From assembly GCA_029976075.1 (NCBI GenBank), contig JARKNW010000012.1, positions 1 to 64,000 of the forward strand: a DNA stretch of 64,000 nucleotides. Direction: 5' to 3'. Origin of the DNA: Pleomorphomonas sp. (GTDB lineage Bacteria > Pseudomonadota > Alphaproteobacteria > Rhizobiales > Pleomorphomonadaceae). Position 1 is the stretch's first letter, and every line of letters starts with the position of its first letter. A model generated the notes under the pieces. The model made no database searches. It saw only the letters and a program-made list of their open reading frames with translations, and was not told the origin of the DNA. Of the stretch, positions 10,958 to 59,342 are shown piece after piece. Both the position numbers and the translations under genes were made by a program.

Positions 10958-10998
10958 GATGGGTTCCCGAAAATTTCGAGGCGATAAGTGTTGGAGGA

Positions 10999-12698: not shown

Positions 12699-12726
12699 AC
12701 GGTCTCGTCCTCGACAGATCGGCTGC

Positions 12727-12767: not shown

Positions 12768-12856
12768 ATGGCGGCACGGCGTTGCTGGCTCAAATAGTCT
12801 ACCGCAATCCGCCAGCGAGGTGGAACAGCGACGGTCAGGCCACCGCTACCCGAGGA

Positions 12857-14176
12857 TTACGGCTTCAAGAGCTCGGCCATGCCCGTCTTGGCCGCGGCAA
12901 GCGCCTCGTCGAGCGACTTGCCGCCGGACCAGTAGGCCGTGAACTCCTTGGCCTGCAGTTCGTAGACCTGCAGAGCCTTGGCCGCCGTGCCACCGTGCAT
13001 CACGAAGCCATAGGCCCCGGCGAACTGGCCGAGCTTGACGAGATCCGGTCGCTCCGTGCTGACCTTGGCCACCACGGCGTCGCTGAGCGCCGGCGATCCG
13101 CCGGCCTTGGCGTAGATTACCATGGCATCGGGCGTGCCCAGCCAGTTCAGGAACTTGACGGCCCCTTCCTTGTTCTTGGACGCCTTGTTGATGCCGAGGC
13201 CGAGGCCGTGGATGTGCGTGAAGCGTCCCTCCGGTCCGGTCGGCGGCGCCACGGTGCCGATCTTGCCGGCGACGGCAGGCGTCTTTTCCTTGTTGTCGAG
13301 ATCGCCGAAGGCAGCATTCCACTGCAGCATGGTGGCCACCTGACCGGCACCGAAGGCGGCATTGGACTCTGCGAACTCATACGTCGTCGAATCCTTCGGC
13401 GAGGTGCCGTCGTCATAGAGCTTCTTGTACATCTCGAGCGCCGCGCGGAAGGCGGGGCTGTCGACGGTAATCTCGCCCTTGTCGTTCATCCAGTCGCCGC
13501 CCTGGGCACGCGCGGCCGAATGCCAGACCATCATGTTGAACAGCAGGTTCTTCATCTGGAGAACCGTGCCGTAGCGCGTCGGGCTGCTCGAATTGATCGA
13601 CTTGGTGAAGAACAGCGCCGTCGCCATCCAGTCGTCCCAAGTCCAGGCGTCCGGATCCTTCGGCTCCAGCTTCTTGCCGAGATACTTCTCGGAGATTTCG
13701 CCGTATTTGGCTTTCCAGTCAGCGTCGGCGAGCAGCTTCTCGATCAGGTCGGTGCGGTAGTACATGAAGTGCAACGACAGGTCGGTGGGGATACCATACT
13801 GCTTGCCGTCGTATTGCATGGTCGCAAGCACCTTCTCGGGGAAGGTGGCCTTCGAGGCATCCGGCAGCGTGATGGGATCCATGAACGGCGCATAGCGGCC
13901 GAGCGCGTAGGTGGCCAGAAGATTGACGTCGAAATCCGTGGAGCCGGCGGCAAGATCGGCGGCAAGCTTGTCAAAGAAACCGTCACGGTTGAAGAAGATC
14001 AGCTTCACCTTGTCGGCATCGGAAGCGGTCGCATTGTAGGCATCGGCCGCCTTGCGCAGGCCGGCCTCCTCCGGGCCACCGGGCCAGCCGAGCACGGTGA
14101 CCTCGGCCATGGCCCCGGTTACTCCAAGCGCCGCGAACAGGGCAGCGCTGGTCAGAAGAGTCTTCAGTCGCGTCAT
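12857..14176 (-). CDS. extracellular solute-binding protein, sugar ABC importer
   Basis: A 439-aa periplasmic binding protein of the large cluster that also holds UgpB and MalE-like proteins. A signal peptide ends at about residue 24 (GVTGAMA, then EVTVLGWPGG). The mature part has the usual bilobal features (YGIPTDLSLHFMYYRTDLIEK, NAAFGAGQVATMLQW). Ligand specificity cannot be read directly. The gene follows nanEK by 17 bp, so an amino sugar such as N-acetylmannosamine or a related compound is the likely substrate. It is the first transporter gene and is followed by a strong hairpin. Confidence 0.92.
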   Translation of the reverse strand: MTRLKTLLTSAALFAALGVTGAMAEVTVLGWPGGPEEAGLRKAADAYNATASDADKVKLIFFNRDGFFDKLAADLAAGSTDFDVNLLATYALGRYAPFMDPITLPDASKATFPEKVLATMQYDGKQYGIPTDLSLHFMYYRTDLIEKLLADADWKAKYGEISEKYLGKKLEPKDPDAWTWDDWMATALFFTKSINSSSPTRYGTVLQMKNLLFNMMVWHSAARAQGGDWMNDKGEITVDSPAFRAALEMYKKLYDDGTSPKDSTTYEFAESNAAFGAGQVATMLQWNAAFGDLDNKEKTPAVAGKIGTVAPPTGPEGRFTHIHGLGLGINKASKNKEGAVKFLNWLGTPDAMVIYAKAGGSPALSDAVVAKVSTERPDLVKLGQFAGAYGFVMHGGTAAKALQVYELQAKEFTAYWSGGKSLDEALAAAKTGMAELLKP

Positions 14177-14193
14177 TTGGGTCCCCTTGGATT

Positions 14194-15828: not shown

Positions 15829-16596
15829 TCAGTCTTGGGCCCGTAGTTCCACCAGAAAGTCGTAGCGCTCGCCGCAATAGTAGGTGCGGGTAAACTCCAC
15901 CGGCGTTCCGTCGGCGGTGAAGCAGCGCCGCTCGGCGACTAGAAGCGGTGCTCCGATCTCGAGGTGAAGCAGGCGGCCGTCCTCCGCGCCGGCCACCGCG
16001 GCGCGCAAGCGTTGCAAAGCTCTGACGGGGCGACGACTCCGCTCAGCCAGCACATCGTAAAGCGAGCCGGTGACCACCTCCGGATCATCGAGGATGTCGG
16101 CCGGCACCACCGCGTGCTCGATGGCCATCGGCATGCCGTCGCCGGTTCTGAGGCGCTTCAAGCGACAGACGCGGGCACCCATCGACAGATGCAGGGCCAT
16201 GATCTCCGCTGGCGAGGCAGGCCCCACCTCCCGACTGATCCAGGTCATGCCCGGCTCGATGCCGCGCGACCGCATGTCTTCCGAGAAGGAAGTAAGTGCC
16301 GACAACGGCTTCTCGACGCGCTCGGCAACCGCCGTCCGGGCACCATGGCGTCGAATCAGCACACCATCGCCGACCAGCGTTTCGATCGCTTTGCGCACCG
16401 ACGTTCGGGAGACGTCGATCGCCTCCGCGAAATCACGTTCGCCAGGCAGAACATCGCCGGTGCCGAGCACATTCTCTGTGATCGCCTGCCGGAGCGCCGT
16501 CGCCAGATCGCGATAGATCACGCCACTCGAATGCCGATCGAGGGCACCGCGAAGAAACTGGATGAGAGGAGATTGGTTCGGCTCGGAGGCTGACAT
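15829..16596 (-). CDS. GntR-family (HutC subfamily) transcriptional regulator
   Basis: A 255-aa regulator. The N-terminal winged-helix domain (about 22-90) has the GntR pattern LRQAITENVLGTGDVLPGE...SRTSVRKAIETLVGDGVL. The C-terminal UTRA ligand-binding domain (about 110-250) has MAIEHAVVPADI and FTRTYYCGERYDF. It is encoded just upstream of nanEK and the ABC importer in the same direction, so it most likely represses that operon and responds to a phosphorylated amino sugar. The ligand is inferred. The ribosome-binding site before the ATG is weak. Confidence 0.9.
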   Translation of the reverse strand: MSASEPNQSPLIQFLRGALDRHSSGVIYRDLATALRQAITENVLGTGDVLPGERDFAEAIDVSRTSVRKAIETLVGDGVLIRRHGARTAVAERVEKPLSALTSFSEDMRSRGIEPGMTWISREVGPASPAEIMALHLSMGARVCRLKRLRTGDGMPMAIEHAVVPADILDDPEVVTGSLYDVLAERSRRPVRALQRLRAAVAGAEDGRLLHLEIGAPLLVAERRCFTADGTPVEFTRTYYCGERYDFLVELRAQD

Positions 16597-16717: not shown

Positions 16718-17365
16718 TCAATCGCTCCACTTCCTCACCAGCCGATCGGCCCACTCCGGTTCTCCCTTGATTCGGTAGATAGTACCCCGCTGCAGTCCCG
16801 TCATCTTTGCTATATGGGCCATGGGTCGCCCCTCGGCGATCAGTCGTCGGACCTCGACAAGCTTTCCGGCATCGAAGGACGGCGCCTTCCCTCGATATTT
16901 TTGAGGCTGGGTCTGGCGGGTTCGCTTGATGCCCGCCGCGCGGGCCGCCAGTCCCCCCTCAGGTTCGATCTCTGCGAAGTGCGAGAGAAGGGCGACGAGC
17001 AGTTCGTTTTGAATGCGATCCACGGCGCCACCGCTGGAACCACCCCTGAACACCAGGCTGCCGATCACCGTCCTGATCGTGACTCCCCTTGCCAGGAAGG
17101 TACGCACCGTATTGCTCAAGTCCGCCATGTTGTGACCAAGACGATCGAGGGCACGAACGATGAGTTCGTCGCCTTCGCCGAGGTAACCAAGGAGACGCCG
17201 GGCCTGCGGTCTGCCCTGGAAGGGCACCTTGCCGCCGACGATACCCGCATCAATGAAGGCTTGGTCAAACTCAAGCCCCTCGGCCTCCGCCATGATCTCC
17301 TGGTGGGCCGCGACCAGACCCTCGGTGCTGGTTCGCCCATAGAACGCACGCCGGCTTCTTCGCAT
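16718..17365 (-). CDS. serine recombinase (resolvase/invertase family) with altered active-site arginine
   Basis: A 215-aa protein with an N-terminal resolvase catalytic domain (about 1-130) and a C-terminal helix-turn-helix (about 175-210, KLVEVRRLIAEGRPMAHIAKMTGLQRGTIYRIK). The catalytic Ser is in FYGRTSTEG, and Arg is kept in ALDRLG. The second arginine of the usual LDRLGR motif is His here (LDRLGHN). The helix that normally reads AEFERxLIxERT is also degenerate (AEIEPEGGLAAR). The gene stands alone without a transposase. Two abutting 32-bp inverted-repeat sites lie 30 bp upstream of its start, and a tRNA-Leu gene lies beyond them. It may be an active resolvase, an invertase without visible targets, or a remnant acting as an autorepressor. 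Confidence 0.88.
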   Translation of the reverse strand: MRRSRRAFYGRTSTEGLVAAHQEIMAEAEGLEFDQAFIDAGIVGGKVPFQGRPQARRLLGYLGEGDELIVRALDRLGHNMADLSNTVRTFLARGVTIRTVIGSLVFRGGSSGGAVDRIQNELLVALLSHFAEIEPEGGLAARAAGIKRTRQTQPQKYRGKAPSFDAGKLVEVRRLIAEGRPMAHIAKMTGLQRGTIYRIKGEPEWADRLVRKWSD

Positions 17366-17394
17366 CGAACGCCCCCAAGCTCGACCGGTTGATG

Positions 17395-17458
17395 TGTCAT
17401 TATATCAACGCGAATCCATAATGACATGTCATTAGTTTGCACATGATCCTTAATGACA
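17395..17458. repeat. two abutting 32-bp inverted-repeat sites (TGTCATTA-N16-TAATGACA), putative recombinase binding sites
   Basis: Site 1 is 17395-17426 and site 2 is 17427-17458. Each has the 8-bp arms TGTCATTA and TAATGACA around a 16-bp spacer of different sequence. The arms are identical in all four copies. The inner two arms join into the 16-bp palindrome TAATGACATGTCATTA. The stretch is AT-rich against GC-rich surroundings. It lies directly in front of the serine recombinase gene, and a TATAAT on the minus strand (17399-17404) overlaps site 1. It could be a res-like recombination site, an autoregulatory operator, or both. Confidence 0.85.
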
Positions 17459-17820
17459 GATTCCGTGACAGTGAACGCTCTATCGTCCGCAACAGGAGTT
17501 TGTGAACGCACCGCCGGACCGGGTGAACCGCCGACAGATCGCCCGACAGAGACGCGCATTCCCCTGCCTGCGTTATTGGCCGGTGCATCGGGCGTGAACC
17601 AACCAACTCGGATGTCAGCGACTGGAACCTTGACCAGACGGCTTTGCTACATCGGTCGCAAGTCGCCTCCGCGGATCCGGCCCGAATCCCTTCGGTACGA
17701 GCAAGGCCTGCCCGCCAACCTGCGCCTCACGTACCAATCCGCCCCCCTTGAAAGGGAGATAAGCAGAAGCTGGCTTGCCCGAGCAGGTAATAGCTTGATC
17801 AAAAAAGGAAAATTGAGTTT
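17459..17820. other. non-coding stretch between recombinase sites and tRNA-Leu
   Basis: ORFs here in the track run through the tRNA or are antisense and lack ribosome-binding sites and family features. A T-rich tract on the minus strand just after the tRNA 3' end (TTTTCCTTTTTTGATC) may end tRNA transcription. I see no other gene or repeat. Confidence 0.4.
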
Positions 17821-17906
17821 TGGTGCCCCAGGCCGGACTCGAACCAGCACGTTCTCGCGAACAACAGATTTTGAGTCTGCCGCGTCTACCATTTCGCCAC
17901 TGGGGC
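17821..17906 (-). tRNA. tRNA-Leu (anticodon CAA)
   Basis: The minus strand gives an 86-nt class II tRNA including an encoded CCA. The acceptor stem is GCCCCAG/CTGGGGC. The anticodon loop is CTCAAAA with anticodon CAA, followed by a long variable arm (GTTCGCGAGAAC), a T-loop GGTTCGAGTCC and ACCA at the end. It reads the leucine codon UUG. Confidence 0.95.
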
Positions 17907-34661: not shown

Positions 34662-35648
34662 TCATAACTTGGCGAAAAGCCGCGCTTTGGTTACCTCATC
34701 GCAGAAGGCATCCTCGATGGCGGTCCGCGTGACGGCGGCAAGGTCGTCCTCGCTCAGCCCGAACGCATCGCGTGCCATCCGATACTCATGGCCGACCGAT
34801 GTCCAGAAGAACGGCGGATCGTCCGTATTGAGCGAATGACGAACGCCCGCCTCCCTGAGCGCGCGAAGCGGGTGGCGCGCATAGTCGGGATAGACACCCA
34901 GCGTCACGTTCGAGACGGGGCAGATCTCGAGGTGAATGCCCTCCTCGACGATGCGACGGATAAGGTCGCCGTTCTCGATGGCCCTTACGCCATGGCCGAT
35001 ACGCTTCACCGGAATGGCATCGAGCGTTGCGGCGACGCCTTCCCAGGAGCACCATTCGCCCGCATGACAGGTAAGAGGCAGGCCGGCCTCGGCAGCGATC
35101 TCGAACGCGGCGGCAAACTCATGCGGAGCATGCAGCCGTTCTTCACCGGCCATACCGAAGCCCACCACTTCGGGAACGAGATTGTTTACGGCGATCCGGG
35201 CGGCCTCGACGCCACGCTCCGGACCATAGTGGCGCTCGACGAGCGGAATGACCCGACCGACGATACCCGTTGCGGCCTCGGCCCGCCGCAACCCTTCGAC
35301 AATACCGTCGAGATAAGCACGGTAGCCGAGGCCGGAGCGTTCGCCGAAGTCAGGCGACACGAAGAACTCGGTGTAGATCGAGCCAGCGGCGGCGGCCTCC
35401 TGCTGATAGATTTCCGCGAGTTCGGCAAAATCCTCCGGCGTCCGGAACACCGAGGCCGCGAGATCATAGGCGACAAGGAACGCGGAAAAGTCAGTCCAGA
35501 GATATCGTCCCTCCTCGTCGAAGAGGCGCGAGACATCCACTCCATAGCGGGCAGCGTTGCGGCGGACCAGTTCAGGGGCGGCGCCGGCTTCGAGATGAAC
35601 ATGCAGTTCGGCTTTCGGCACCAGGGGCACGGAAGTCGGTTCGGTCAT
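34662..35648 (-). CDS. add: adenosine deaminase
   Basis: A 328-aa metal-dependent deaminase that turns adenosine or deoxyadenosine into inosine or deoxyinosine. Zinc ligands and catalytic residues are seen in [17 protein letters not shown] (catalytic Glu), RIGHGV and [10 protein letters not shown] (Asp pair). The first motif reads HLEAG rather than the common HLxG, a small deviation. Context (purine nucleoside phosphorylase, deoB) favours adenosine over adenine as substrate, since adenine deaminases of the same fold are similar. It lies 9 bp after deoB. Confidence 0.88.
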
Positions 35649-35657
35649 GATGAACCT

Positions 35658-36875
35658 TCAGAGCAGTGAGCGGCCATGCTGCCCCGGCGCGAGGCCAAGC
35701 CAGTCGGCAACGGTTTCGGCCATGTCGGCGAAGGTATTGGGTCGACCGGCCGGGCCAGGCGGCACGCGAGCTCCGGCAAACAGCGCCGGCACGCGCTCCC
35801 GTGTGTGGTCGCTGCCACTCCAGGTTGGATCGCAGCCGTGGTCGGCAGTGATCAGCAGCATGTCGCCTTCGCCCATCGCCGCTTCCACCTCGGGCAGGCG
35901 GCGATCGAAAGCCTCAAGGCACGCGGCATAACCGGCGACGTCGCGCCGGTGCCCATATTCGGTATCGAAGTCGACGAGATTGACAAACACCAAGTCCCCA
36001 TCGGCGGCCTCCCCGAGCGCGGCGATGCCGAGGTCGAGATTGCCATCGTTGGACTTTCCCTTTCGGGTGATGGTGATGTTCTGATGGGCGAAGATATCCC
36101 CGATCTTGCCGATGCCGTAGACCTTGTGGCCCGCCGCCTCGACGCGGGTGAGCAAGGTCGGTTCAGGTGGCGGCACGGCATAATCTCGCCGGTTGGCCGT
36201 GCGCTTGAAGGTATCCTTGGTTTCGCCGACGAAGGGTCGGGCTATCACCCGGCCGACGCGGTAGTCGTCGACCAGCCTGCGGGCGATTTCACAATCGGCG
36301 AGCAACTTGGCGAGGCCGAAATGGGTCTCATGCGCCGCGATCTGCAGCACCGAGTCCGCCGAGGTATAAATGATCGGCTTGCCGGTGCGGATATGTTCCT
36401 CCCCGAACCGGGCGATCACCTCGGTTCCTGAAGAGTGGCAGTTGCCCAGAATGCCGGGCACGCCCGTCTCGCGCACATAAGCCTCGATCAGCTCGGCGGG
36501 AAAGCTCGGATACTCCGGCGGGAAATAGGTCCATTCGAAGGGGACTGGCACGCCGGCGATTTCCCAGTGACCGGACGGAGTATCCTTGCCGCTCGACACC
36601 TCGGCAGGCGCAGCATATCGGCCTTCGGCCTTGGCCCGGGTAAAGCCGGCCGGCTTGCGACCCGTCGCGAGTTCCGCCGCAAGCCCCAGGCCGATGCGCT
36701 CGAGATTGGGGAGCAACAGCGGCCCCGAACGCACACCATCCCGATCGCCCCGTCCGGCCGCGCACTCGGCGGCAATATGACCGAGCGTGTCGGAGCCTTC
36801 ATCGCCGAAGCGGGCGGCATCCGGCGCACCGCCGATGCCAAAGCTGTCCAGCACGATGATGATGGCCCGTCTCAT
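35658..36875 (-). CDS. deoB: phosphopentomutase
   Basis: It interconverts (deoxy)ribose-1-phosphate and the 5-phosphate. The 405-aa protein of the alkaline-phosphatase superfamily has metal-binding segments [20 protein letters not shown] (start), [16 protein letters not shown] (phospho-threonine site), [16 protein letters not shown] and [21 protein letters not shown]. The start at 36875 follows GAGGAGGAATC; the track ORF adds ten residues. It accepts the sugar phosphates made by the phosphorylases encoded just upstream. Confidence 0.96.
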
Positions 36876-36961
36876 GATTCCTCCTCGATGCCTGAACGGC
36901 ACCACAACCTTCCAAAACTCATCCTGGGGCGGCGCCGTCCGCTGCCGCCCCAGGAAATCTC

Positions 36962-38278
36962 TTAGCCGCCGACCCGCTCGATCACCGACGGGCCGCGTTC
37001 CGGCCGATCGCCGAGCTGGTAGGCGGCGATCAGCGCGGCGGCGGCAACTTCGGCAGCCGAGTCGCTTGCCGCATGCACGAAGCCAAGCGGATGGTCGGCA
37101 TCAACGTCCTCGCCAAGACCGGCCAGCGCCGAGAAGCCGACAGACGGATCTATGGGATCCTGCGGACGGGTACGGCCGCCGCCCAGCCCGACGACGGCAA
37201 CGCCGATCGCCCGTGCGTCGATCGATGCGACGGTACCTGCCTGAGGCGCGTGAACCGGCTTCACCACCGGCGCCTTGGCGAGATAGCTGTCGGCCTTGGT
37301 GACGAAATCGATCGGGCCACCGAGCGCACTGACCATGCTGCCGAAGATTTCCGCCGCGCGGCCGGAGGTGAAGGCCTCCTCGATGGCCACGCGCGCTTCG
37401 GCGAGATCGGGACGAAGACCGCCGATCACCAGCATTTCGGCGGAAAGAGCAACCGTGACGTCCCACATGCGCGGATCGATGCGCTTGCCCGTCAGAAAGT
37501 CGACGGCGAGCTGCACTTCCAACGCATTGCCCGCCGCGGTCCCCAAGGGTTCGTTCATGTCGGTGATCAGGCCGATGGTCGGAAGTCCTGCCCCGTTGGC
37601 AACGCGAACGAGGCTTTCAGCCAGGGCGCGCGAGTCGTCCAACGTCGCCATGAACGCGCCGGTACCCGTCTTGACGTCGAGAACCAAGCCATGCAGTCCG
37701 GCGGCGAGCTTCTTGGAAAGGATCGACGCGGTGATGAGGTCGATGCTTTCCACCGTACCGGTCACGTCGCGGATGGAATAAACCCGCTTGTCGGCCGGCG
37801 CGAGATCTGCGGTCTGGCCGATGACGGCGCAACCAACTTCGCGAACCACCTTGCGGAACAGGTCGTTGTCGGGCTGCGTCTTGTAGCCGGGCACCGTGTC
37901 GAGCTTGTCGAGCGTGCCGCCAGTGTGCCCGAGGCCCCGGCCGGAAATCATCGGCACGTAGCCGCCGCAAGCGGCGATCGCTGGCGCCAGCATCAATGAC
38001 ACGGTATCGCCGATGCCGCCCGTCGAGTGCTTGTCGAGGGCCGGTCCCGGCAGGTCCGACCAATCGAGCACGGTTCCGGAATCGCGCATGGCAAGCGTCA
38101 GTGCCACGCGTTCATCGATGGTCATGCCCCGGAAGAAGGTCGCCATGGCAAAAGCCGCCACTTGCCCCTCGGTTACCGAGCCGGCGGTCAGCCCCTCGAC
38201 CATGAAGGCGATCTCTTCGCGACTGAGCACGGCACCGTCGCGCTTGCGACGGATGATTTCCTGCGGCAGGAAGCTCAT
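36962..38278 (-). CDS. deoA: thymidine phosphorylase
   Basis: It cleaves thymidine (and deoxyuridine) to the base and deoxyribose-1-phosphate. The 438-aa length is normal. The family signature is seen as [21 protein letters not shown] (about 112-132), phosphate-binding [12 protein letters not shown] (about 84-95) and [10 protein letters not shown]. Its ATG overlaps the stop of the purine nucleoside phosphorylase gene (ATGA), so the two phosphorylases are translationally coupled. Confidence 0.96.
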
Positions 38279-39096
38279 GCGGATGCTCCATAGGCAGCGA
38301 TGACGCGGGGCAGGATGCGCCGAAGCTTCTCGGCTCCCTTGGGAGCAGCTTCCTTCACTTCCTCGTGGCTGAGTTCCTGGTCGGTGAGCCCGGCGGCCGG
38401 ATTGGTGACGGTGGAGACGGCCGCGACTTCAAGGCCCATGTAGCGGGCGAGGATAACCTCGGGCACTGTCGACATGCCGACGGCGTCACCACCGAGGATC
38501 TTCGCAGCGCGGATCTCGGCCGGCGTCTCGAAGGACGGACCGGTGAACCAGACATAGACACCGGAATGCAGCTTGATCCCCTCGGCTGCCGCCGCTTCCC
38601 GGAACAGGCTCTGCAGACGTAGATCGTAGGCCTGCGACATGCCGACGAAGCGCTCGTCTCCTAGCTCGCCGACCAGCGGATTGGAGCCGGTGAAGTTGAT
38701 GTGGTCGGTGATCAGCATCAACTCGCCGGGACCGACCTCGAGGTGCAGGCCGCCGGCGGCGTTGGTCAGGATCACCGCCTTGCAGCCGATCAGCTTCAGC
38801 ACCTCGATCGGTGTCTTCATGATCGCCGCCTCGCCATGCTCATAATAGTGAGCGCGACCGGACAACACTGCTACCGGCTGGCCGGCGATACGGCCGATGA
38901 CCAGTTCGCCCTTGTGGCTGGAGACGGTGGACACAGGGAAGCCGGGCAGATCGGCAAAGGAGAAGCGGACGGCGCCCTCGACACTGTCGGCAAACGAGCC
39001 GAGACCGGAGCCCAGCACCATGCCGACAACCGGCTTCAGATCCGTCTTGGCAGCGATCATCGCCGCCGCGCGGGCAGCGTTGGAGACTTCGGACAT
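38275..39096 (-). CDS. purine-nucleoside phosphorylase (trimeric, family 2)
   Basis: It splits inosine, guanosine and the deoxy forms to base and sugar-1-phosphate. A 273-aa protein with the family's phosphate-binding [11 protein letters not shown] near the start, [24 protein letters not shown] (about 80-90), [26 protein letters not shown] and [25 protein letters not shown]. The length and motifs fit the mammalian-type trimeric enzyme (PunA/DeoD2) rather than the hexameric DeoD. GGAGTGAACGAAC precedes the ATG. Confidence 0.94.
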
Positions 39097-39102
39097 GTTC
39101 GT

Positions 39103-39522
39103 TCACTCCTCCAGAACGAAACCGGCCGGCAGCAGCTCGGCCATTGTGAAACGCTGGCTGGCACCGTCGGGATCGGCGGCCCACACTTCGGTCATCGGCG
39201 ATGCGGCGAACTCCGAGAGGCGCTGGCGGCAACCGCCGCAGGGCGTGCAGAAGCGACCGCCCGGCACCCGCTCGCCGTCGATGCGGCTCGCCACCACCAC
39301 GGCACGAATGATGCGTTTGCCGCCGCCCATGACCATGTGGCCGATGGCCGTCGTCTCGGCACACCATCCCTCCGGGAAGGCCGCATTCTCGACGTTGCAA
39401 CCGGCATAGACCTTACCGTCGTCGGCAAGCAGCGCCGCTCCGACGGCATAGTTGGAATAAGGGGCATGCGCGCGAGCGCGGGCAGCGCTCGCCGCCGCGA
39501 ACAACGTATCGAAATCGGCCAT
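39103..39522 (-). CDS. cdd: cytidine deaminase
   Basis: It deaminates cytidine and deoxycytidine to uridine forms. The 139-aa length fits the homotetrameric class. Zinc ligands and catalytic Glu are present in ENAAFPEGWCAETTAI (CAE) and FCTPCGGCRQRLSEF (PCxxC). It lies between the permease genes and the nucleoside phosphorylase gene, two bases from the permease stop, with AAGGAGCG as ribosome-binding site. Confidence 0.95.
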   Translation of the reverse strand: MADFDTLFAAASAARARAHAPYSNYAVGAALLADDGKVYAGCNVENAAFPEGWCAETTAIGHMVMGGGKRIIRAVVVASRIDGERVPGGRFCTPCGGCRQRLSEFAASPMTEVWAADPDGASQRFTMAELLPAGFVLEE

Positions 39523-39523
39523 C

Positions 39524-40492
39524 TCAGCGCTCCTTCACATAAGGCACGCCACCCGCCTTCGGCGGCCGGGCAACGCCGATGAAGCCGGCAAGCAGCACGC
39601 AGGTCAGCACATAGGGCAGCGCCTGGAAGATCTGCACGGGCACCTCGCCAATCCCCGGCACGCTCTTGCCTTGCATGAAGTTGGCGAAAGCGTCGAGGAA
39701 GCCGAACAGAAGACAGGCCAGCATCACCGGCACCGGCCGCCACTTGGCGAAGATGAGCGCGGCAAGCGCGATGTAGCCCTTGCCAGCCGACATGTCCTTC
39801 ACGAAGCCCGCCGACTGGGCGATGGCGAGATAAGTACCCGAACAACCGCACAGGATACCGGCGCAGATGGTGGCCCGGTAACGCAGCCAGGTGACCGAGA
39901 TACCGGCGGTATCGACGGCGCCCGGATTCTCGCCGACAGCCCGGAGACGCAGGCCGAACCGGGTTCGATACAGAATCCACCAGGACACCGGCACGGCGAT
40001 GAAGGCCAGGTAGGTCAGAATGTTGTGGCCCGAAATGACGTTGGCATAGAAGCGGCCGATGAAGCCCGTGTTCCGGAGCTCGGCGGCATAGGGAAAGACG
40101 ATTTCGGTAAAGCGTGCCGAAGGCGCCAGCGGCGGCGTGCGGCCGCCCTGGCTGAACCAGGCCTGCCCCAGCACCGCCGTCAGACCGGAGGCCAGGAAGT
40201 TGATGGCGACGCCCGACACGATCTGGTTGCCGCGGTTGGTGATCGAAGCAAAGCCGTGGATCAGCGAGATCAGCACCGACACGGCGATGCCGGCCAGAAG
40301 GCCCATCCATGGCGATCCGGTCATGAAGGCGGCGACGGCGGCGGCAAAGGCTGAGAACAGCATCTTGCCTTCGAGACCGATGTCGAACACACCGGCCCGC
40401 TCCGTGAAGAGACCCGCCAATGCGGTGAAGATCAGCGGGATCGACAGTCGAATGGTCGAGCCGAGGATCGAGATGAGGTCAAGGTTTTCCAT
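39524..40492 (-). CDS. nucleoside ABC transporter permease (NupQ/YufQ type)
   Basis: A 322-aa membrane subunit of the branched-chain-type ABC permease family (BPD_transp_2). About eight to nine hydrophobic helices are visible. Typical segments are TALAGLFTERAGVFDIGLEGKMLF (about 20-45), RAVGENPGAVDTAGISV and the C-terminal SVPGIGEVPVQIFQALPYVL. It pairs with the permease encoded upstream and the double-ATPase protein. GGGAGAGAG precedes the ATG. Confidence 0.92.
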   Translation of the reverse strand: MENLDLISILGSTIRLSIPLIFTALAGLFTERAGVFDIGLEGKMLFSAFAAAVAAFMTGSPWMGLLAGIAVSVLISLIHGFASITNRGNQIVSGVAINFLASGLTAVLGQAWFSQGGRTPPLAPSARFTEIVFPYAAELRNTGFIGRFYANVISGHNILTYLAFIAVPVSWWILYRTRFGLRLRAVGENPGAVDTAGISVTWLRYRATICAGILCGCSGTYLAIAQSAGFVKDMSAGKGYIALAALIFAKWRPVPVMLACLLFGFLDAFANFMQGKSVPGIGEVPVQIFQALPYVLTCVLLAGFIGVARPPKAGGVPYVKER

Positions 40493-40505
40493 GGATCTCT
40501 CTCCC

Positions 40506-41609
40506 TCAGGCCTTGCCGAACCGCTGCCAAATCCGGACGATGGCCGGACGGAACATGTATTCGAGGGCGCCGGCGAACAGGACCACCAGACCCTGGATGA
40601 CGACGATCATGTCACGGGTGATCTTCGGCATGTCGAAGGACAAGGCGTCACCGCCCTGATAGAGCACGCCGAACAGGATGGCCGCGAGCACGATGCCGAT
40701 TGGATGACTGCGTCCCATCAGGGACACCGCGATGCCGACGAAGCCGGCGCCGCCCACGAACTCCACCTGCAAGCGGGCGGACGCACCAAGAACAGGATTG
40801 AGCGCCATCATGCCGGCGAGGCCGCCGGAGATCAGCATGGTGATGATGACAGTCTTGACATAGGGGATGCCGGCGTAGACGGCAGCCGTCGGACTGGCCC
40901 CGAGGGTACGGATCTCGTAGCCGAACTTGGTCCGCCAGATCAGCAGCCAGACGACGACGCACATGACCAGCGCGATGAGGAACGACACGTTGAACGGTGC
41001 CGCCCCGAGCTTGCCCCCGAACATCGCGATCAGCCAGTCGAGCTTGGGCAACTGCCCGCCCTCCAGGAAAACGCGGGTTTCCGGCGCCATCTTGCCCGGC
41101 ACGATCAGCACGTGAACGAGCAGATAGACCATCATCGCGGCGCCGATGAAGTTGAACATGATGGTGGTGATGACGATGTGGCTGCCCCGCTTGGCCTGCA
41201 GCCACGCCGGGATCAACGCCCAGGCGGCGCCGAAAATCGCCGAGCCGATCACCGCAAAGGGCATCGTCACGTACCAGGGCACATAATGATCGAGGGCGAG
41301 CGAGGCGAGCGCCGCGCCGAGGCCACCCACATAGGCCTGGCCTTCCGAACCGATGTTGAAGAGACCGGCATGATAGGCGACGGCCACCGACAAGCCGGTG
41401 AAGATGAAGTTGGTGGCGTAGTAGAGCGTGAAGCCTATGCCCTCGCCGTTGCCGAGCGCCCCTTGCAACAGGAGCTTGACGGCTTCGAGCGGGCTCTCGC
41501 CGATGAACCAGACGACAAGTCCGGAAATCAGGAAGGCGACCACAAGGTTGAGAAACGGCATCAGGCCGTAGGTGATCCAGTTGGGAAGCGGTACGGACGC
41601 GGTGCTCAT
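40506..41609 (-). CDS. nucleoside ABC transporter permease (NupP/YufP type)
   Basis: A 367-aa membrane subunit with many hydrophobic helices. Family segments include AVAYHAGLFNIGSEGQAYVGGLGAA, ITTIMFNFIGAAMMVYLL and GGAGFVGIAVSLMGRSHPIGIVLAA. ATG at 41609 has GAGG upstream; the track start at 41627 lies inside the end of the ATPase gene and is a weaker choice. The ATPase stop is at 41617, just upstream. Confidence 0.92.
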   Translation of the reverse strand: MSTASVPLPNWITYGLMPFLNLVVAFLISGLVVWFIGESPLEAVKLLLQGALGNGEGIGFTLYYATNFIFTGLSVAVAYHAGLFNIGSEGQAYVGGLGAALASLALDHYVPWYVTMPFAVIGSAIFGAAWALIPAWLQAKRGSHIVITTIMFNFIGAAMMVYLLVHVLIVPGKMAPETRVFLEGGQLPKLDWLIAMFGGKLGAAPFNVSFLIALVMCVVVWLLIWRTKFGYEIRTLGASPTAAVYAGIPYVKTVIITMLISGGLAGMMALNPVLGASARLQVEFVGGAGFVGIAVSLMGRSHPIGIVLAAILFGVLYQGGDALSFDMPKITRDMIVVIQGLVVLFAGALEYMFRPAIVRIWQRFGKA

Positions 41610-41616
41610 CTCGGCC

Positions 41617-43140
41617 TCACGCGGCAATGCCGGCCATCATCAGGCCGAGTGTCTGTTCGCCGGTATCCGGCGTCTTCTCGCCAACCACATGGCCGGCGAA
41701 CATCACGAGGATGCGGTCGGAAAGCGAGCGGATCTCATCGAGCTCCACCGAGACCAACAGCACCGCCTTGCCGGCGTCGCGCATGGCGATCAACCGACGA
41801 TGAATGAATTCGATGGCACCGATGTCAACGCCGCGCGTCGGCTGACCGACGATCAGGAGCGACGGATCGCGCTCGATCTCGCGGGCCACGACGATCTTCT
41901 GCTGATTGCCACCTGAGAAGTTGGCAGTCTTCAGCCGGCAGTTGGGTGGTCGGATATCGTATTTCTCGATCTTGGCCTTGGCATCCTCACGACAGGAATC
42001 GAGATTGAGCATCGGTCCACGACCATAGCGGCTATCCCGATGATAGCCCAGAATGGAGTTCTCGCTCTCTTCAAACCCCAGCACGAGGCCCATGTGGTGC
42101 CTGTCCTCGGGGATGTGACCGAGACCGAGCGACCGCAGACGGGCGGAATCGAACCCGGTCACCGGCTTGCCGTGCATCAGGATTTCGCCCGAGGTCGGCT
42201 TGCGGATACCGGTGATCGCTTCCAGAAGCTCCGACTGGCCGTTACCGGCAACACCGGCGATGCCGACCACCTCGCCGGCACGAACGTCGAAGGAGACGTT
42301 GTCGACCATGACGACGCCACGGCCGTCCTTGACCGTCAGGTTCCGGACCGAAAGCACGATATCGCTGGGGGCCGCCGGCCCCTTCTCAACGCGCAGCAGC
42401 ACGCGGCGGCCAACCATCAGCTCGGCGAGTTCCTCAACCGTCGTCTCGGAGGTACGGCGCGTCGCCACCATCTCGCCACGCCGCATCACCGAGACAGTGT
42501 CGGTAATCGCCATGATCTCGCGGAGCTTGTGAGTGATCAGGATGATCGTCTTGCCCTGATCGCGCAGCACGCCAAGGATGCGGAACAGGTGATCGGCCTC
42601 GGCCGGGGTCAGCACGCCCGTAGGCTCGTCGAGGATCAGTATCTCGGCACCGCGATAGAGCGCCTTGAGAATCTCGACACGTTGCTGCAGACCGACCGGC
42701 AGTTCCTCGATGATCGCGTCGGGATCGACCTCCAGCCCATAGTCGGCCTCAAGCCGCTTTAGCGCCGACCGCGCCTCGGAGACGCCCCGACCGAGCAGGG
42801 CCCCTCCCTCGACACCAAGAACCACGTTTTCCAGGACCGAGAAATTCTCGACCAGCATGAAATGCTGGTGGACCATGCCGATACCGGCGGAAATCGCCGC
42901 CTGGCTATCGTGGATGATGGTTTCCTTGCCGTTGATGCGGATCGAGCCGCCATCGGCTTGATAGAAACCATAGAGGATCGACATCAGCGTCGACTTGCCG
43001 GCGCCATTCTCACCGATGATGCCGTGGATCGATCCCTTGGCGACGGTGAGGTTGATATTCTTGTTGGCATGGACGGCGCCAAACTTCTTGTCGATGCCGA
43101 TCAGTTCAATGGCGGGCACTGCGGTCGTGGATGGGCTCAC
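41617..43140 (-). CDS. nucleoside ABC transporter ATP-binding protein (two ATPase domains)
   Basis: A 507-aa protein with two fused ABC domains. The first has Walker A GENGAGKSTLMSILYG (about 45), signature-like LPVGLQQRVEILKAL and Walker B EILILDEPTGVLTP. The second (about 260-500) has a glycine loop in GIAGVAGNGQSELLEA instead of a full Walker A, signature FSGGNQQKIVVARE and Walker B LLIVGQPTRGVDIGA. This asymmetric layout is normal for BMP-type and ribose-type importers. The start is GTG at 43140, since the track start at 43173 is TTG within the hairpin region. Confidence 0.93.
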   Translation of the reverse strand: MSPSTTAVPAIELIGIDKKFGAVHANKNINLTVAKGSIHGIIGENGAGKSTLMSILYGFYQADGGSIRINGKETIIHDSQAAISAGIGMVHQHFMLVENFSVLENVVLGVEGGALLGRGVSEARSALKRLEADYGLEVDPDAIIEELPVGLQQRVEILKALYRGAEILILDEPTGVLTPAEADHLFRILGVLRDQGKTIILITHKLREIMAITDTVSVMRRGEMVATRRTSETTVEELAELMVGRRVLLRVEKGPAAPSDIVLSVRNLTVKDGRGVVMVDNVSFDVRAGEVVGIAGVAGNGQSELLEAITGIRKPTSGEILMHGKPVTGFDSARLRSLGLGHIPEDRHHMGLVLGFEESENSILGYHRDSRYGRGPMLNLDSCREDAKAKIEKYDIRPPNCRLKTANFSGGNQQKIVVAREIERDPSLLIVGQPTRGVDIGAIEFIHRRLIAMRDAGKAVLLVSVELDEIRSLSDRILVMFAGHVVGEKTPDTGEQTLGLMMAGIAA

Positions 43141-43160
43141 GGTTGGACGACTCCGGATAC

Positions 43161-43206
43161 GAAAAAGGCGCAAGGCACGCCCGAGAAACCGGCCATGCCT
43201 TGCGCC
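43161..43206 (-). terminator. hairpin plus U-tract between BMP-binding-protein and ATPase genes (attenuating terminator)
   Basis: On the minus strand GGCGCAAGGCA and TGCCTTGCGCC form a perfect 11-bp stem around 18 bases, followed by TTTTTC. It lies between the binding-protein gene and the rest of its operon, as in the amino-sugar operon at 12.7 kb, and probably lowers downstream expression. Confidence 0.75.
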
Positions 43207-43221
43207 CCCATGATTGCTAGA

Positions 43222-44217
43222 TCATTTCGGGCAGGAGTTGTCCGACATATAGTCGTGCACCTTGACGGCGCCGGAGACGATGTCGGCCTTGGCCTTCTCG
43301 ACCGCCGCAAGGATCTCTGGCGTGATCAGCGGCTTGTTGTTGTCGTCATAGGCCCAGGCAACGCCGTCTTCCTTGATGCCGAGCGCCTGTACGCCGGGGG
43401 TGAACTTGCCGGCCTTGGTGTCGGTGAAGGCATTGTAGACCGCGAGATCGACGCGCTTGACCATCGAGGTCAGCACCGAACCGGGATGCAGATAGTTCTG
43501 GTTGCTGTCGACGCCGATCGAGAACTTGCCCTGGTCGGCCGCCGTCTGGAGCACACCGATGCCCGACGCACCAGCCGCCGCGTAGATGACATCCGCGCCC
43601 TGGTCGATCTGGCCCTTGGCAAGCTCGCCGCCGCGCACCGGATCGCTCCAGGCGGCGCCAGTGGTGCCGATGAAGTTCTGGAACACTTCGTTGCCCGCCT
43701 TGGCCGCACGAGCGCCCTGATCGTAACCGCACTCGAACTTGCGGATCAGCGGAATGTCCATACCGCCGACGAAACCGACCTTGCCGGTCTTCGAGAACAG
43801 CCCGGCAACGGTGCCGACGAGGTAGGAACCTTCCTCTTCCTTGTAGACAACCGAACGGACATTGGGCTTGTCGACAACGGCATCAACGATGACGAACTTG
43901 GTATCGGGGAACTCGGTCGCAACCTTCTCGATGGCCGAAGTCCAGGCGAAGGAGACGGCCACCACCGGATTGAAGCCCTTGGAAGCGAAGTTGCGGATCG
44001 CCTGCTCGCCCTGGGTATCGCCGGTCGGTTCGAAGTCGCGATACTCGATGCCGGTCTCGGCCTTGAACTTCTCGGCGCCGGCATAGGACGCCTCGTTGAA
44101 GGACTTGTCGAACTTGCCGCCGGTGCCATAGACGAGCGCCGGCTTGATATCCGCCGCCATGGCCGTGCTGGTCAGCATGGCTGCGACAAAGGTAGCGCCG
44201 ATCAGTTTGTTGATCAT
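43222..44217 (-). CDS. BMP-family nucleoside-binding protein
   Basis: A 331-aa periplasmic binding protein of the basic membrane protein (Med/PnrA) family. A signal peptide ends at about residue 22 (STAMAADIKPALVYG). Typical ligand-site segments are GTGGKFDKSFNEASYAGAEKF, VAVSFAWTSAIEKVA, GFVGGMDIPLIRKFECGY, and GVDSNQNYLHPGSVLTSMVKRVD. The protein ends in DNSCPK, as is common. With the permeases and ATPase it should import purine or pyrimidine nucleosides. The start follows GTGAGGAACACG; the 536-aa track ORF is artificial upstream of it. Confidence 0.94.
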   Translation of the reverse strand: MINKLIGATFVAAMLTSTAMAADIKPALVYGTGGKFDKSFNEASYAGAEKFKAETGIEYRDFEPTGDTQGEQAIRNFASKGFNPVVAVSFAWTSAIEKVATEFPDTKFVIVDAVVDKPNVRSVVYKEEEGSYLVGTVAGLFSKTGKVGFVGGMDIPLIRKFECGYDQGARAAKAGNEVFQNFIGTTGAAWSDPVRGGELAKGQIDQGADVIYAAAGASGIGVLQTAADQGKFSIGVDSNQNYLHPGSVLTSMVKRVDLAVYNAFTDTKAGKFTPGVQALGIKEDGVAWAYDDNNKPLITPEILAAVEKAKADIVSGAVKVHDYMSDNSCPK

Positions 44218-55051: not shown

Positions 55052-55795
55052 TCAGGGAGCGAGGCACTCGACATACGCCCCGGACTGACCAACGCGGAGC
55101 TCAATGATCCTCGAAAGAGTCTTTTGTGCCCGGCTCGGCTTCAGCGGATTGCGGATGGACGGATTGGGCAGGGCAGCGGCGATGAGGGCAGCTTCTCTTC
55201 GGCTCAGCTTCGATGCCGGCTTCTTGAAATAATACCGGGCCGCCGCCTCGACACCGTAAATGTTGGGGCCAAGCTCGGCAATGTTCAGATAGATTTCCAG
55301 CGTCCGCCGTTTCGACCAGACCAGATCGGCATAAAGAGCAAGCGGTATTTCGAGTCCCTTGCGGATATAGGAGCGGGACGGCCAGAGAAAGACGTTCTTC
55401 ACCGTCTGCATGGTGATGGTGCTGGCACCACGGTTGGGACCGCCGTTGCGGTTCAGGACGGCGCGAAGCTGTGCCCAATCGACGCCATCGTGGAAACAGA
55501 ACTGACCATCTTCGCTCATGACGACGGCCTGCTTCATGCTGGGCGCGATATCATCGAGATCGACCCACTGACGACTGTAGCCCTGAAAGGTCAGCAGATC
55601 CCAGATCATGATCGTCGAAACAGGGCGGACGAACAGATAGAGCGGCGCCAGCACGAAGGGCAGGATGACAACCACCGCGGCAGCCATGGAGACCCGCCGG
55701 AGCCAGATCCGCCAGCCAGCTTGCCTCACAGCCGCCGCCTCCCCATCGCTCACCACCGGCTCGCCTTCGGCCATCGCCTCGCTGAGATCGCTCAT
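55052..55795 (-). CDS. mtgA: monofunctional peptidoglycan glycosyltransferase
   Basis: A 247-aa GT51 enzyme that polymerises lipid II into glycan strands. One N-terminal membrane helix (about 32-55) is followed by the catalytic domain. The catalytic Glu is in VVMSEDGQFCFHDGVDW (about 92), with the motifs GASTITMQTVKNVFLWPSRS, RKGLEIPLALYADLVWSKRRTLEIYLN and GVEAAARYYFKKPASKLSRREAALIAAALPNP. There is no transpeptidase domain. It lies upstream of rpmF on the same strand. Confidence 0.95.
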   Translation of the reverse strand: MSDLSEAMAEGEPVVSDGEAAAVRQAGWRIWLRRVSMAAAVVVILPFVLAPLYLFVRPVSTIMIWDLLTFQGYSRQWVDLDDIAPSMKQAVVMSEDGQFCFHDGVDWAQLRAVLNRNGGPNRGASTITMQTVKNVFLWPSRSYIRKGLEIPLALYADLVWSKRRTLEIYLNIAELGPNIYGVEAAARYYFKKPASKLSRREAALIAAALPNPSIRNPLKPSRAQKTLSRIIELRVGQSGAYVECLAP

Positions 55796-55977
55796 GCCCC
55801 ACCCGCCTGTCCGTTTTTTTCATAAACCAACGGTGCCGGCCGGGCAAACGGGGGAATCATGGCAATCATCCATTAGCCGCCACACCACCTGCCCTCCACG
55901 CCGCTTTGAGCTCGAAGAGGCGCAAAACGCCACCCAATGCGGCAAATGCCTGCAATTTGGACAGACGTGGCGCTATT

Positions 55978-56006
55978 TTGACATGGCGAAAATTGAGGCA
56001 GCATGA
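55978..56006 (+). promoter_or_regulatory. putative promoter of the small RNA
   Basis: TTGACA (55978-55983) is followed after 17 bp by GCATGA. The -35 is perfect, the -10 is weak. Transcription would start near 56012, upstream of the anti-Shine-Dalgarno hairpin. Confidence 0.5.
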
Positions 56007-56011
56007 GACCT

Positions 56012-56125
56012 TTTACTTGTGAGCGCTGCTTTGTCGGTCTTCCGTCTGGATCTTCCTCCTGATCCACCGTGGCACTCCAGCTTTCCTCCCAGAACTCAGG
56101 CCGGCGACCCCGGCCTGTTTTTTTT
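56012..56125 (+). ncRNA. candidate trans-acting small RNA with anti-Shine-Dalgarno loops
   Basis: About 114 nt in a 430-bp gap between divergently placed mtgA and putA (both minus strand), with no ORF. A perfect hairpin GGATC-TTCCTCCT-GATCC (56048-56065) shows CCUCC in its loop. A second pyrimidine stretch CTTTCCTCCC follows (56081-56090). It ends in a strong intrinsic terminator (56097-56125). Exposed CCUCC loops are known in alphaproteobacterial small RNAs such as the AbcR (alpha-r15) and alpha-r14 ('cuckoo') groups, which pair with ribosome-binding sites. Family membership here is inferred. The 5' end is estimated from the promoter. Confidence 0.65.
56097..56125 (+). terminator. strong intrinsic terminator of the small RNA
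   Basis: CAGGCCGG, a 5-base loop and CCGGCCTG form a perfect 8-bp stem followed by eight T. No protein gene lies upstream on this strand for several kilobases, so it marks a non-coding transcript. Confidence 0.85.
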
Positions 56126-56225: not shown

Positions 56226-59200
56226 TCAGTCGTCGCCCATGGCAACCAGCGTCGCGTTGCCACCGGCTGCGGCCGTATTGATGGACACCACCTGCTCGAG
56301 CGCAAAGCGGGTGAGGTAGTTGGGACCACCCGCCTTCGGCCCGGTCCCCGAAAGACCTGAGCCACCAAAGGGTTGCGAGCCAACCACCGCTCCTATCATG
56401 TTGCGGTTGACGTAGACATTGCCGACCGGCAACCGTTCGACGACGCGCTTCACGGTGGTCTCGATACGCGAGTGGATACCCAAGGTGAGGCCGTAACCGC
56501 TCGCAGCAATATCCTCGATGACCTTGTCGAGTTCCTTTGCCTTGTAGCGGACGATGTGCAGCACCGGGCCGAACACCTCCTTTTCGAGCGCACTCGCATC
56601 GGGCAGCTCGACGATGGTCGGCGCAAAGTAGGTGCCACCGGCCAGGGCACTTTGCGGGGTCTCGCCGGAAAACAGCACACCTCCCTTGCCCTGCCAGGCG
56701 GCCACGTGAACGGCGAGTTTCTCTCTCTGCTCGCGGTCGATGATCGGACCGACATCCGTCTCCGGCCGGCGCGGATCGCCGACCTTGAGCTCGGCCGCCG
56801 CGCCCTTGATGAGATCGACCATATGGTCGGCGACATCGTCCTGTACGAACAACAGCCGCAGTGCCGAACAACGCTGGCCGGCGGAGCGAAACGCGGAGGT
56901 AATGACGTCATCGGTCACCTGTTCGCCGAGCGCAGTGGCATCGACGATCATGGCGTTGAGACCACCCGTCTCGGCAATCAGCGGCACGATCGGTCCGCGT
57001 TTGGCGGCTAGCGCCCTGTTGATGGCAAAGGCAGTATCCGTCGAACCGGTAAAGGCAACGCCAGCAATGCGCGGATCGTCGACAAGCGCCGCGCCGGCGG
57101 AGCCATCGCCAACGACCAGCGTCAACGCCGACACGGGCACCCCCGCTTCATGCAACAACCGCACCGCCATGGCGCCGGTAAGCGGCGTCTGTTCGGCGGG
57201 CTTGGCCACCACGGCATTGCCGGCCGCAAGTGCCGCTGCCGTCTGGCCGACAAAAATCGCCAGCGGGAAGTTCCACGGTGCAATAGCGGCAAAGACGCCC
57301 CGTCCCCGGTAGTCGAGGTGGTTTTCCTCGCCTGTCGGGCCGGGCATGGCAACCGGCGCCTCGAACAGGCGCCGTGCCTCGGCGGCATAGTAACGGCAGA
57401 AATCGACCGCCTCGCGGACCTCGGCGATGCCATCGGCCAGCGTCTTGCCTGCCTCAAGCGCCAGTACCGCCAGAAGCTGCGGTAGTCTGTCCTCGAGAAG
57501 ATCGGCCGCCCGCTCAAGGGCAGAGGCGCGTGTCTCGGCTGAAGCTGTACACCAGGAGCGGAAGCCCTCGGAGGCCGAGGAGACCGCTCGCCTCACGGTT
57601 TCCACATCGGCGTCGATCGCACGGCCGATCTCCGTCTTTCCATCGATCGGCGACAGAAGAACGCGCGGCGTGCCGGTCGCATCTTCTCCATCAACGATCG
57701 AAGCGGCAGTCCCGAAGTCGCTGCCCGCAGCCGCGATGGCGTTCAGCAGCGGCTCGAGCGCCTGCTCATCGGCCAGCTCCACGCCGCGCGAGTTCCGGCG
57801 GGACCCGAACAGATCGGCAGGCAGCGGAATGCGGGCATGACGGGCGCGGTCGCCGCCAGCCAATACGTCAGCGGGACGCTTCAACAAGGTCGAGATCTCC
57901 ACATTGGAATCGCCGACGGCGGCGACGAAGGATGAGTTGGCGCCGTTCTCCAGAAGGCGTCGAACGAGATAGGCGAGAAGATCCTTGTGCCCTCCGACGG
58001 GCGCATAGATGCGGCAGGGCTGGCCGCCCTTTTCAGTGACCTCGCGATAGAGCGTGTCACCCATGCCGTGCAGGCGCTGGAACTCGAAATGCCGGTCCTT
58101 GCCGGCGATCTCCGAAACTTCGGCCACCGTCAACGCATTGTGCGTGGCGAACTGCGGGTAGATGCGAGGTCGCGCACGAAGGAGTTTTTCGGCACAGACG
58201 AGGTAGGAGAGGTCGGTGGAAGCCTTGCGGGTGAACAGCGGGTAGTCCGCAAGCCCCCGCTCCTGGCCGCGCTTCATCTCGGTATCCCAATAGGCTCCCT
58301 TGACGAGGCGCACCATGAAACGGCGCCCAAGGCTTTCGGCTAGCTCGATCATGTAGTCGATCACTGCCGGCGCGCGCTTTTGATAGGCCTGCACGGCAAG
58401 GCCAAAGCCATGCCACCCGGCGAGCGACGGATCGGCGGCCACGGCGGCAATCACCTCGAGCGACAGCTTCAGGCGATCGGCCTCCTCTGCATCGACCGTC
58501 AGATTGAGATCGTAGGCCTTTGCCGCTCGTGACAGCTCCAGGAGTTTCGGTACCAACTCGGCCATTACCCGTTCGGCATTCAGTGCCTCATAACGCGGAT
58601 GCAGGGCCGACAACTTGACCGAGATACCCGGCCGGGCCGGCAGCGGCTCCGAGCCGGCCGACTTGCCGATTGCCTCGATCGCCATCGCATAATCGGCAAA
58701 GTAACGCGCCGCATCTGCAGCCGTGCGGGCCCCTTCCCCGAGCATGTCATAGGAATGACGATAACCCTTGCCGCCAAGGCCACGGGCGCGCGACAGCGCC
58801 GCCTCGATCGAGGTACCCAGCACGAACTGGTAACCCATGATCTTCATCGCCTGCCGCGTGGCAGCGCGCACCGGCGGCATGCCCAGGCGCTTGACAAGGC
58901 CGGTGAAGATATTCTCCGGCGTCTCGCCCGGCTGCAGCACGCGCGTGGTCACGCCGAGCGCCCAGCCGGAGGCGGCGACCAGCCAGGGATCCTCACCCTT
59001 GCCGTGGAAGCCGAAGGCGGCCGATGCGAGCTTGTCTTCGATCAGCCGGTCGGCAGTGGCGCCATCCGGCACGCGCAACAGCGCCTCCGCCATCACCATG
59101 ATGGCAAGCCCCTCGCGTGTCGTCAGCGAGTAAGCCTTCAGAAAATCCTCGACACCACCGATTGCCGATTTGCCATCACGAATGGCCGAGATGAGACGGC

Positions 59201-59342
59201 TGGCGTGCGCATCGACACGCGCCCGCGTCTCGCGGTTCTCGGGCCGTGCCGCCAGAAGACGACGGACCACGATGGTCTCGTCCTCCGCATAGGGCGGCGA
59301 AAAGCACGGAGCCCGGACGGGCTCGGAATGAACTGCAGACAT
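56226..59342 (-). CDS. putA: bifunctional proline dehydrogenase / L-glutamate-gamma-semialdehyde dehydrogenase
   Basis: A 1038-aa enzyme that oxidises proline to glutamate in two steps (FAD, then NAD+). There is an N-terminal arm domain (about 10-130). The proline dehydrogenase barrel (about 170-470) has MVRLVKGAYWDTEMKRGQERGL and FATHNALT. The aldehyde dehydrogenase domain (about 560-1020) has IAPWNFPLAIFVGQ, AETGGLNAMIVDA (Glu) and the catalytic Cys in AGQRCSAL. There is no ribbon-helix-helix domain at the N-terminus, so it is not a self-regulating PutA; the divergent Lrp-type gene fills that role. GGAGATCAA precedes the ATG. Confidence 0.97.
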   Translation of the reverse strand: MSAVHSEPVRAPCFSPPYAEDETIVVRRLLAARPENRETRARVDAHASRLISAIRDGKSAIGGVEDFLKAYSLTTREGLAIMVMAEALLRVPDGATADRLIEDKLASAAFGFHGKGEDPWLVAASGWALGVTTRVLQPGETPENIFTGLVKRLGMPPVRAATRQAMKIMGYQFVLGTSIEAALSRARGLGGKGYRHSYDMLGEGARTAADAARYFADYAMAIEAIGKSAGSEPLPARPGISVKLSALHPRYEALNAERVMAELVPKLLELSRAAKAYDLNLTVDAEEADRLKLSLEVIAAVAADPSLAGWHGFGLAVQAYQKRAPAVIDYMIELAESLGRRFMVRLVKGAYWDTEMKRGQERGLADYPLFTRKASTDLSYLVCAEKLLRARPRIYPQFATHNALTVAEVSEIAGKDRHFEFQRLHGMGDTLYREVTEKGGQPCRIYAPVGGHKDLLAYLVRRLLENGANSSFVAAVGDSNVEISTLLKRPADVLAGGDRARHARIPLPADLFGSRRNSRGVELADEQALEPLLNAIAAAGSDFGTAASIVDGEDATGTPRVLLSPIDGKTEIGRAIDADVETVRRAVSSASEGFRSWCTASAETRASALERAADLLEDRLPQLLAVLALEAGKTLADGIAEVREAVDFCRYYAAEARRLFEAPVAMPGPTGEENHLDYRGRGVFAAIAPWNFPLAIFVGQTAAALAAGNAVVAKPAEQTPLTGAMAVRLLHEAGVPVSALTLVVGDGSAGAALVDDPRIAGVAFTGSTDTAFAINRALAAKRGPIVPLIAETGGLNAMIVDATALGEQVTDDVITSAFRSAGQRCSALRLLFVQDDVADHMVDLIKGAAAELKVGDPRRPETDVGPIIDREQREKLAVHVAAWQGKGGVLFSGETPQSALAGGTYFAPTIVELPDASALEKEVFGPVLHIVRYKAKELDKVIEDIAASGYGLTLGIHSRIETTVKRVVERLPVGNVYVNRNMIGAVVGSQPFGGSGLSGTGPKAGGPNYLTRFALEQVVSINTAAAGGNATLVAMGDD

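Follow-up and report, generated by a model that had tools for sequence, protein, structure and literature searches.

A predicted small RNA with anti-Shine-Dalgarno segments beside mtgA in the Pleomorphomonadaceae

Results

A conserved element with the features of an RNA gene adjoins mtgA

In the window (the whole 64,000-nucleotide stretch of DNA that was analysed) of Pleomorphomonas, a bacterium of soil, mtgA and putA are separated by a 430-bp gap. The plus strand of this gap carries an element of 114-122 nt that ends in a strong terminator and, judged by its sequence, behaves as a conserved RNA gene. Among the genomes sampled it is specific to the Pleomorphomonadaceae lineage, and it had not been described: the family is absent from Rfam, and the literature searched yielded no small RNA of Pleomorphomonas. 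We consider it probable that the element encodes a small RNA that acts in trans and is derived from, or sibling to, the alphaR8 (suhB/mmgR) RNAs; its CCUCC segments would block ribosome entry, with solute-binding-protein and sugar-use genes as the probable targets. It would add a lineage-specific member to the anti-Shine-Dalgarno (anti-SD) RNAs. The features of the region are as follows.

55052-55795, minus strand: mtgA, monofunctional biosynthetic peptidoglycan transglycosylase (NCBIfam TIGR02070, 188.5 bits); divergent neighbour
55941-55950, plus strand: dyad GGCA-N2-TGCC, possible regulator site (conserved in the alignment consensus)
55978-55983, plus strand: TTGACA, possible -35 element (from the sequence; in most of the genus)
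55984-56009, plus strand: promoter box TGGCG-N8-GGCA-N3-TGAGAC (from alignments; spacing fixed across genera)
56012-56125, plus strand: predicted small RNA (conservation, fold, covariance model R1; 5' end uncertain by several nt)
56017-56080, plus strand: long-range helix, 56017-56029 with 56069-56080, enclosing the anti-SD hairpin
56047-56066, plus strand: anti-SD hairpin 1, stem UGGAUC/GAUCCA, loop UUCCUCCU at 56053-56060 (compensatory changes; CCUCC invariant in the genus)
56081-56091, plus strand: anti-SD segment 2, CUUUCCUCCCA, single-stranded (invariant in the family; aligned to RF00519)
56097-56125, plus strand: Rho-independent terminator with 8 T (sequence and fold; stem invariant in 14 genomes)
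56226-59342, minus strand: putA, proline dehydrogenase / glutamate semialdehyde dehydrogenase (NCBIfam NF008869, 1506 bits); convergent neighbour

The plus-strand intrinsic terminator recognised in the initial annotation consists of an 8-pair stem (56097-56117) followed by eight T (56118-56125). The hairpin and the second CCUCC-bearing segment proposed at the same time are likewise present and conserved. In the long-range helix around the hairpin, 98.5% of the cells are paired among 12 distinct sequences, and all changes are one-sided. Taken as a whole, the 114-nt span has a more favourable fold than dinucleotide shuffles of it (z = -3.5); only 1 of 200 was as good. The mtgA-putA gap holds three CCUCC motifs where 0.85 are expected (P about 0.06), a count that by itself is unremarkable; the segments are more than chance because they are conserved.

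The element is conserved within one family

A DNA search of 60 genomes placed the element in every one of the 14 genus genomes and, in part, in Methylobrevis and Chthonobacter; of six other Pleomorphomonadaceae genomes, at least four carry it. All named carriers (Pleomorphomonas, Oryzibacter, Methylobrevis and Chthonobacter) belong to this one family; a single Verrucomicrobiales match had neither terminator nor promoter box and was discarded as chance. Across the 14 genus genomes, the element averages 87% pairwise identity, against 72% for its promoter stretch, 42% for the DNA before that stretch and 36% for the DNA that follows the element.

A covariance model (R1, spanning 56005-56124) built from the 14 genus sequences recovered all of them together with the same-family genomes G014, G016, G018 and G019 at 43-47 bits, and matched G017 weakly (25.7 bits). 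In an even sample of 249 Hyphomicrobiales genomes, about 240 of them from other families, nothing outside the family exceeded 26 bits. Ten weak R1 matches were rejected as they had no CUUUCCUCCC linker, and another turned out to be a canonical alphaR8 RNA.

Neither segment CUUUCCUCCCA nor the terminator stem varies among 17 aligned family sequences. In the loop hairpin, compensatory changes affect four of the six pairs, while its loop CCUCC stays unchanged throughout the genus; loop loss in relatives, which had been named beforehand as evidence against the RNA, was thus not seen at this level. Two Chthonobacter copies have lost the loop CCUCC. Over the whole structure, five pairs changed on both sides compared to 0.9 in shuffles (0 of 500 reached five) and 0-1 in slid controls. 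Identical rows were counted once here, and kinship can inflate covariation scores, the count of doubly changed pairs being the more robust measure. Identity, fold and compensatory changes together bear out, at the level of sequence, the earlier proposal of a discrete, independently terminated RNA gene with two unpaired CCUCC segments.

The 3' half of the element resembles alphaR8 RNAs

The initial annotation had pointed to the alphaproteobacterial small RNA families of Rfam, but no such match was obtained: at gathering score, only a tRNA was matched in the whole window. The nearest model was suhB/mmgR (alphaR8, RF00519) with 22.3 bits against a gathering score of 41 (E 0.019). This sub-threshold match spans the CCUCCC segment and the terminator, so that the likeness is confined to the 3' half. 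Among the other copies listed, RF00519 scores were about 25-28.5 bits, that of G014 reached 37.6 bits, and none reached 41. As the threshold is not reached, we do not file the element as an alphaR8 member.

Aligned to RF00519, anti-SD segment 2 is the counterpart of the alphaR8 10-mer core with A replacing the last U; the position reads UUUCCUCCCA in the genus and UUUCCUCCCU in the G014 copy. As in alphaR8 RNAs (RF00519; SisA-D in Caulobacter), an unpaired UUUCCUCCC precedes a strong terminator, the single-stranded 10-mer lying directly upstream of it. Besides the final base of the 10-mer, the element differs from alphaR8 in its linker (GAACUC, not AGACUU), in a longer 5' domain with the long-range helix around a separate CCUCC hairpin, in scoring below the Rfam threshold in all copies, and in its place beside mtgA.

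Several alphaR8 copies per genome are usual. The source genome encodes elsewhere, at three places, a canonical suhB (62.7 bits) along with two lower-scoring suhB-like terminator elements, and a search found a canonical suhB copy in every genus genome but G007. The genome's own suhB reads CCGCCCUCCUUGGGCG, then UUUCCUCCCUAAGACUU, then the terminator. Its CCUCC-bearing upstream stretch is a further likeness to the element, and its 3' order of CCUCC, UUUCCUCCCU and terminator recurs in the G014 copy, which adjoins mtgA and has the promoter box of the window. Because this copy beside mtgA has the 10-mer and scores 37.6 bits, the window RNA is, on sequence grounds, likely a diverged alphaR8 relative with the G014 copy as an intermediate, which suggests how alphaR8 RNAs may diversify.

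Alternatively, the RNA may act in the manner described and yet be unrelated by descent to alphaR8, having converged on UUUCCUCCC beside a terminator; this would change its ancestry only, not its mechanism. The low RF00519 score and the restriction of the likeness to the 3' half fit such an origin, whereas the G014 intermediate, with the same mtgA neighbour and promoter box, argues against it, and we regard convergence as possible but rather doubtful. For descent from alphaR8, a more specific course can be pictured, which we put forward as speculation with little chance of holding in full: an alphaR8 copy would have moved beside mtgA in the Pleomorphomonadaceae ancestor, where it acquired the promoter box together with a second anti-SD hairpin; the changed last base of its 10-mer would make it prefer UGGGAGGAAA sites of solute-binding-protein genes, while the original suhB keeps the AGGGAGGAAA sites of other sugar-use genes. 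If true, a duplicated regulator would divide its targets by one base.

The element also resembles two other families of anti-SD small RNAs. It shares with alphar14 (NfeR1) a length of about 115-123 nt and repeated unpaired CCUCC segments, but NfeR1 forms three hairpins each with CCUCCUCCC, whereas the element has the two segments UUCCUCCU and CUUUCCUCCCA, neither of which contains CCUCCUCCC. With alphar15 (AbcR1/AbcR2) it has in common two anti-SD segments and ABC binding-protein mRNAs as targets (proposed ones in the case of the element); it differs in having no Rfam match, no VtlR/LsrB box upstream, a single copy and other neighbours. Up to E = 5, neither the alphar14 nor the alphar15 Rfam model matched the element, which we place in neither family.

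Exact complements of the anti-SD core often precede solute-binding-protein genes

By analogy with characterised RNAs, the element is most likely a relative of alphaR8 that regulates through its anti-SD segments. We infer a small RNA of about 114-120 nt, independently transcribed and terminated, that would act in trans: its unpaired CCUCC segments (loop and linker) would keep ribosomes out by pairing with G/A-rich Shine-Dalgarno regions, turning down probable targets that include periplasmic solute-binding-protein and sugar-use genes. Caulobacter SisA represses a target through the alphaR8 10-mer (PMC12559287), NfeR1 uses its CCUCC motifs to repress ntrB and the mRNAs of transporter binding proteins (PMC10746234), and the anti-SD motifs of NfeR1 and AbcR1/2 pair at the start region, with periplasmic binding-protein mRNAs among their targets (PMC10746234, PMC8844928). 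The alphaR8 members MmgR and SisA-D share Hfq association as a trait, and the element may depend on Hfq as well.

The exact complement UGGGAGGAAA (searched as TGGGAGGAAA, 2-9 bases before ATG) occurs at 55 sites in the 14 genomes and its reversed pattern at none; in the same genomes, the comparable ribosome site AAAGGAGGAA precedes ATG at 10 sites and AGGGAGGAAA at 48. Among the TGGGAGGAAA loci read, which include orthologues from several species and are therefore not independent, 19 of 30 lead into solute-binding proteins. These represent 8 of the 17 distinct families sampled, a 431-aa family being counted only by a weak MalE match. In 2.4 Mb of the G012 genome, 4 of 18 genes with GGGAGGAA start sites are binding-protein-like compared to 2.6% of all genes (p = 0.001), and 0 of 9 with AGGAGGAA start sites, where gene calls and the binding-protein label followed simple ad hoc rules, as they did in the energy test below.

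In a duplex-energy ranking of 2,023 genes of a close relative, binding-protein genes did not rank higher with this RNA than with scrambled flanks or the 16S tail (AUC 0.54, p = 0.18), and Pfam counts among the top 90 differed only modestly. The extended complement of the loop segment, TCAGGAGGAAG, precedes ATG at only 8 sites, which follow no pattern. The evidence on targets is therefore mixed, with the exact-core counts in favour and the energy ranking against. GGGAGG may also simply be the ribosome site that binding-protein genes prefer.

The two ABC binding-protein genes that had been singled out in the window (12857-14176 and 43222-44217, minus strand) are indeed there, but their start sites show only ordinary pairing with the linker, the conserved single-stranded segment, at -6.5 and -11.4 kcal/mol against a 5% background of -13.9. 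We rejected them as good targets. Given the exact-core result on one side and the energy ranking and the ordinary pairing of the window genes on the other, we consider binding-protein targets plausible from the sequence data. Of the earlier claim of ribosome-site blocking at ABC binding-protein mRNAs, the UGGGAGGAAA sites lend support to a part, while the energy test found nothing specific; the earlier interpretation is partly supported, being right in kind and unproven in detail. It leads to the prediction that UGGGAGGAAA start sites, many of them before binding-protein genes, form the regulon of the element.

A real RNA with these segments might also serve mainly for something other than repressing mRNAs, by binding a protein, or by sponging or being sponged by another RNA through CCUCC. 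C/U-rich loops are able to capture G-rich partner RNAs, the binding of the sponge RNA CrfA by SisA-D being an example (PMC12559287), and the negative energy test would agree with such a role. Against it, the CCUCC of characterised relatives represses mRNAs by pairing at ribosome sites, and the genus has an excess of exact complements ahead of its start codons, so that we hold this function to be unlikely and retain mRNA repression as the preferred reading.

Some further patterns were seen at start sites. Before ATG, GGGAGGAAA is far commoner than AAAGGAGGAA in the 14 genus genomes. The AGGGAGGAAA start sites belong mostly to sugar-use and transport genes. In nine or ten of the 14 genomes, a TGGGAGGAAA site stands before the gene for L-rhamnose isomerase.

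The element has its own conserved upstream region

Every Pleomorphomonas copy of the element has mtgA next to it, as does the element in Oryzibacter, the two Chthonobacter genomes and G014. On the other side, putA is found in Pleomorphomonas with one exception (L011) and is not found in Oryzibacter; in Methylobrevis (L021), neither gene is near the element within the fetched DNA. Small RNA and putA are convergent, and from the orientation and position of the terminator no overlap with mtgA or putA is needed. A cis-acting role, as a divergent promoter or leader part of mtgA or as an antisense or 3'-UTR element of putA, would agree with the mtgA adjacency in nearly all species and with a conserved eight-codon ATG...TGA frame over the promoter box, but is very improbable: the terminator and T-run would serve a plus-strand transcript that leads away from mtgA and ends ahead of the putA stop, and Methylobrevis (L021) keeps the element with no mtgA found nearby.

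This frame (55983-56006; ATG GCG ... GCA NNN TGA) is present in 14 of 14 genus genomes and also in Chthonobacter, starts with ATG or GTG and has no ribosome-binding site. We regard it as incidental.

The sigma-70 promoter proposed in the initial annotation is weak and, in the form described there, not supported. TTGACA is present at 55978-55983, but three species (L009-L011) have TTAGCA in its place and L014 has lost it. The hexamer 17 bp past it, GCATGA, is no recognisable -10, and a promoter scan returned no sigma-70 site. The promoter box matched no known sigma-factor or regulator motif; a sigma-54 promoter was rejected on inspection of the alignments because 11 bases, instead of 10, separate GG from GC in the box.

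Upstream of the promoter, about 67 bp before the presumed start, lies the dyad GGCA-N2-TGCC. The AbcR1 promoter has the LsrB/VtlR box GCAT-N3-TG-N3-T (PMC7486931, PMC8844928), and the PhaR box YGCRNYGCR is known from the mmgR promoter (PMC12542648). Among 18 upstream regions, none had the VtlR/LsrB box, and the PhaR box was absent across the genus, its sole match falling over the promoter box of a Methylobrevis copy (L015), not at the dyad.

Elsewhere in the window, a sugar-acid cluster (9887-15744) encodes a NanE-ROK fusion, an ABC ATPase, permeases and the 12857-14176 binding protein; just beyond the cluster lies a GntR/UTRA regulator (15832-16596). At 16721-17906, a resolvase-domain gene adjoins a tRNA gene (17824-17906, minus strand), a possible mobile-element boundary. 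A nucleoside-use cluster (34665-44217) comprises genes for an adenosine deaminase, a metalloenzyme-superfamily (phosphopentomutase-like) protein, a pyrimidine nucleoside phosphorylase and a nucleoside phosphorylase, together with a sugar-type ABC ATPase and a PnrA-like binding protein whose start is at 44217.
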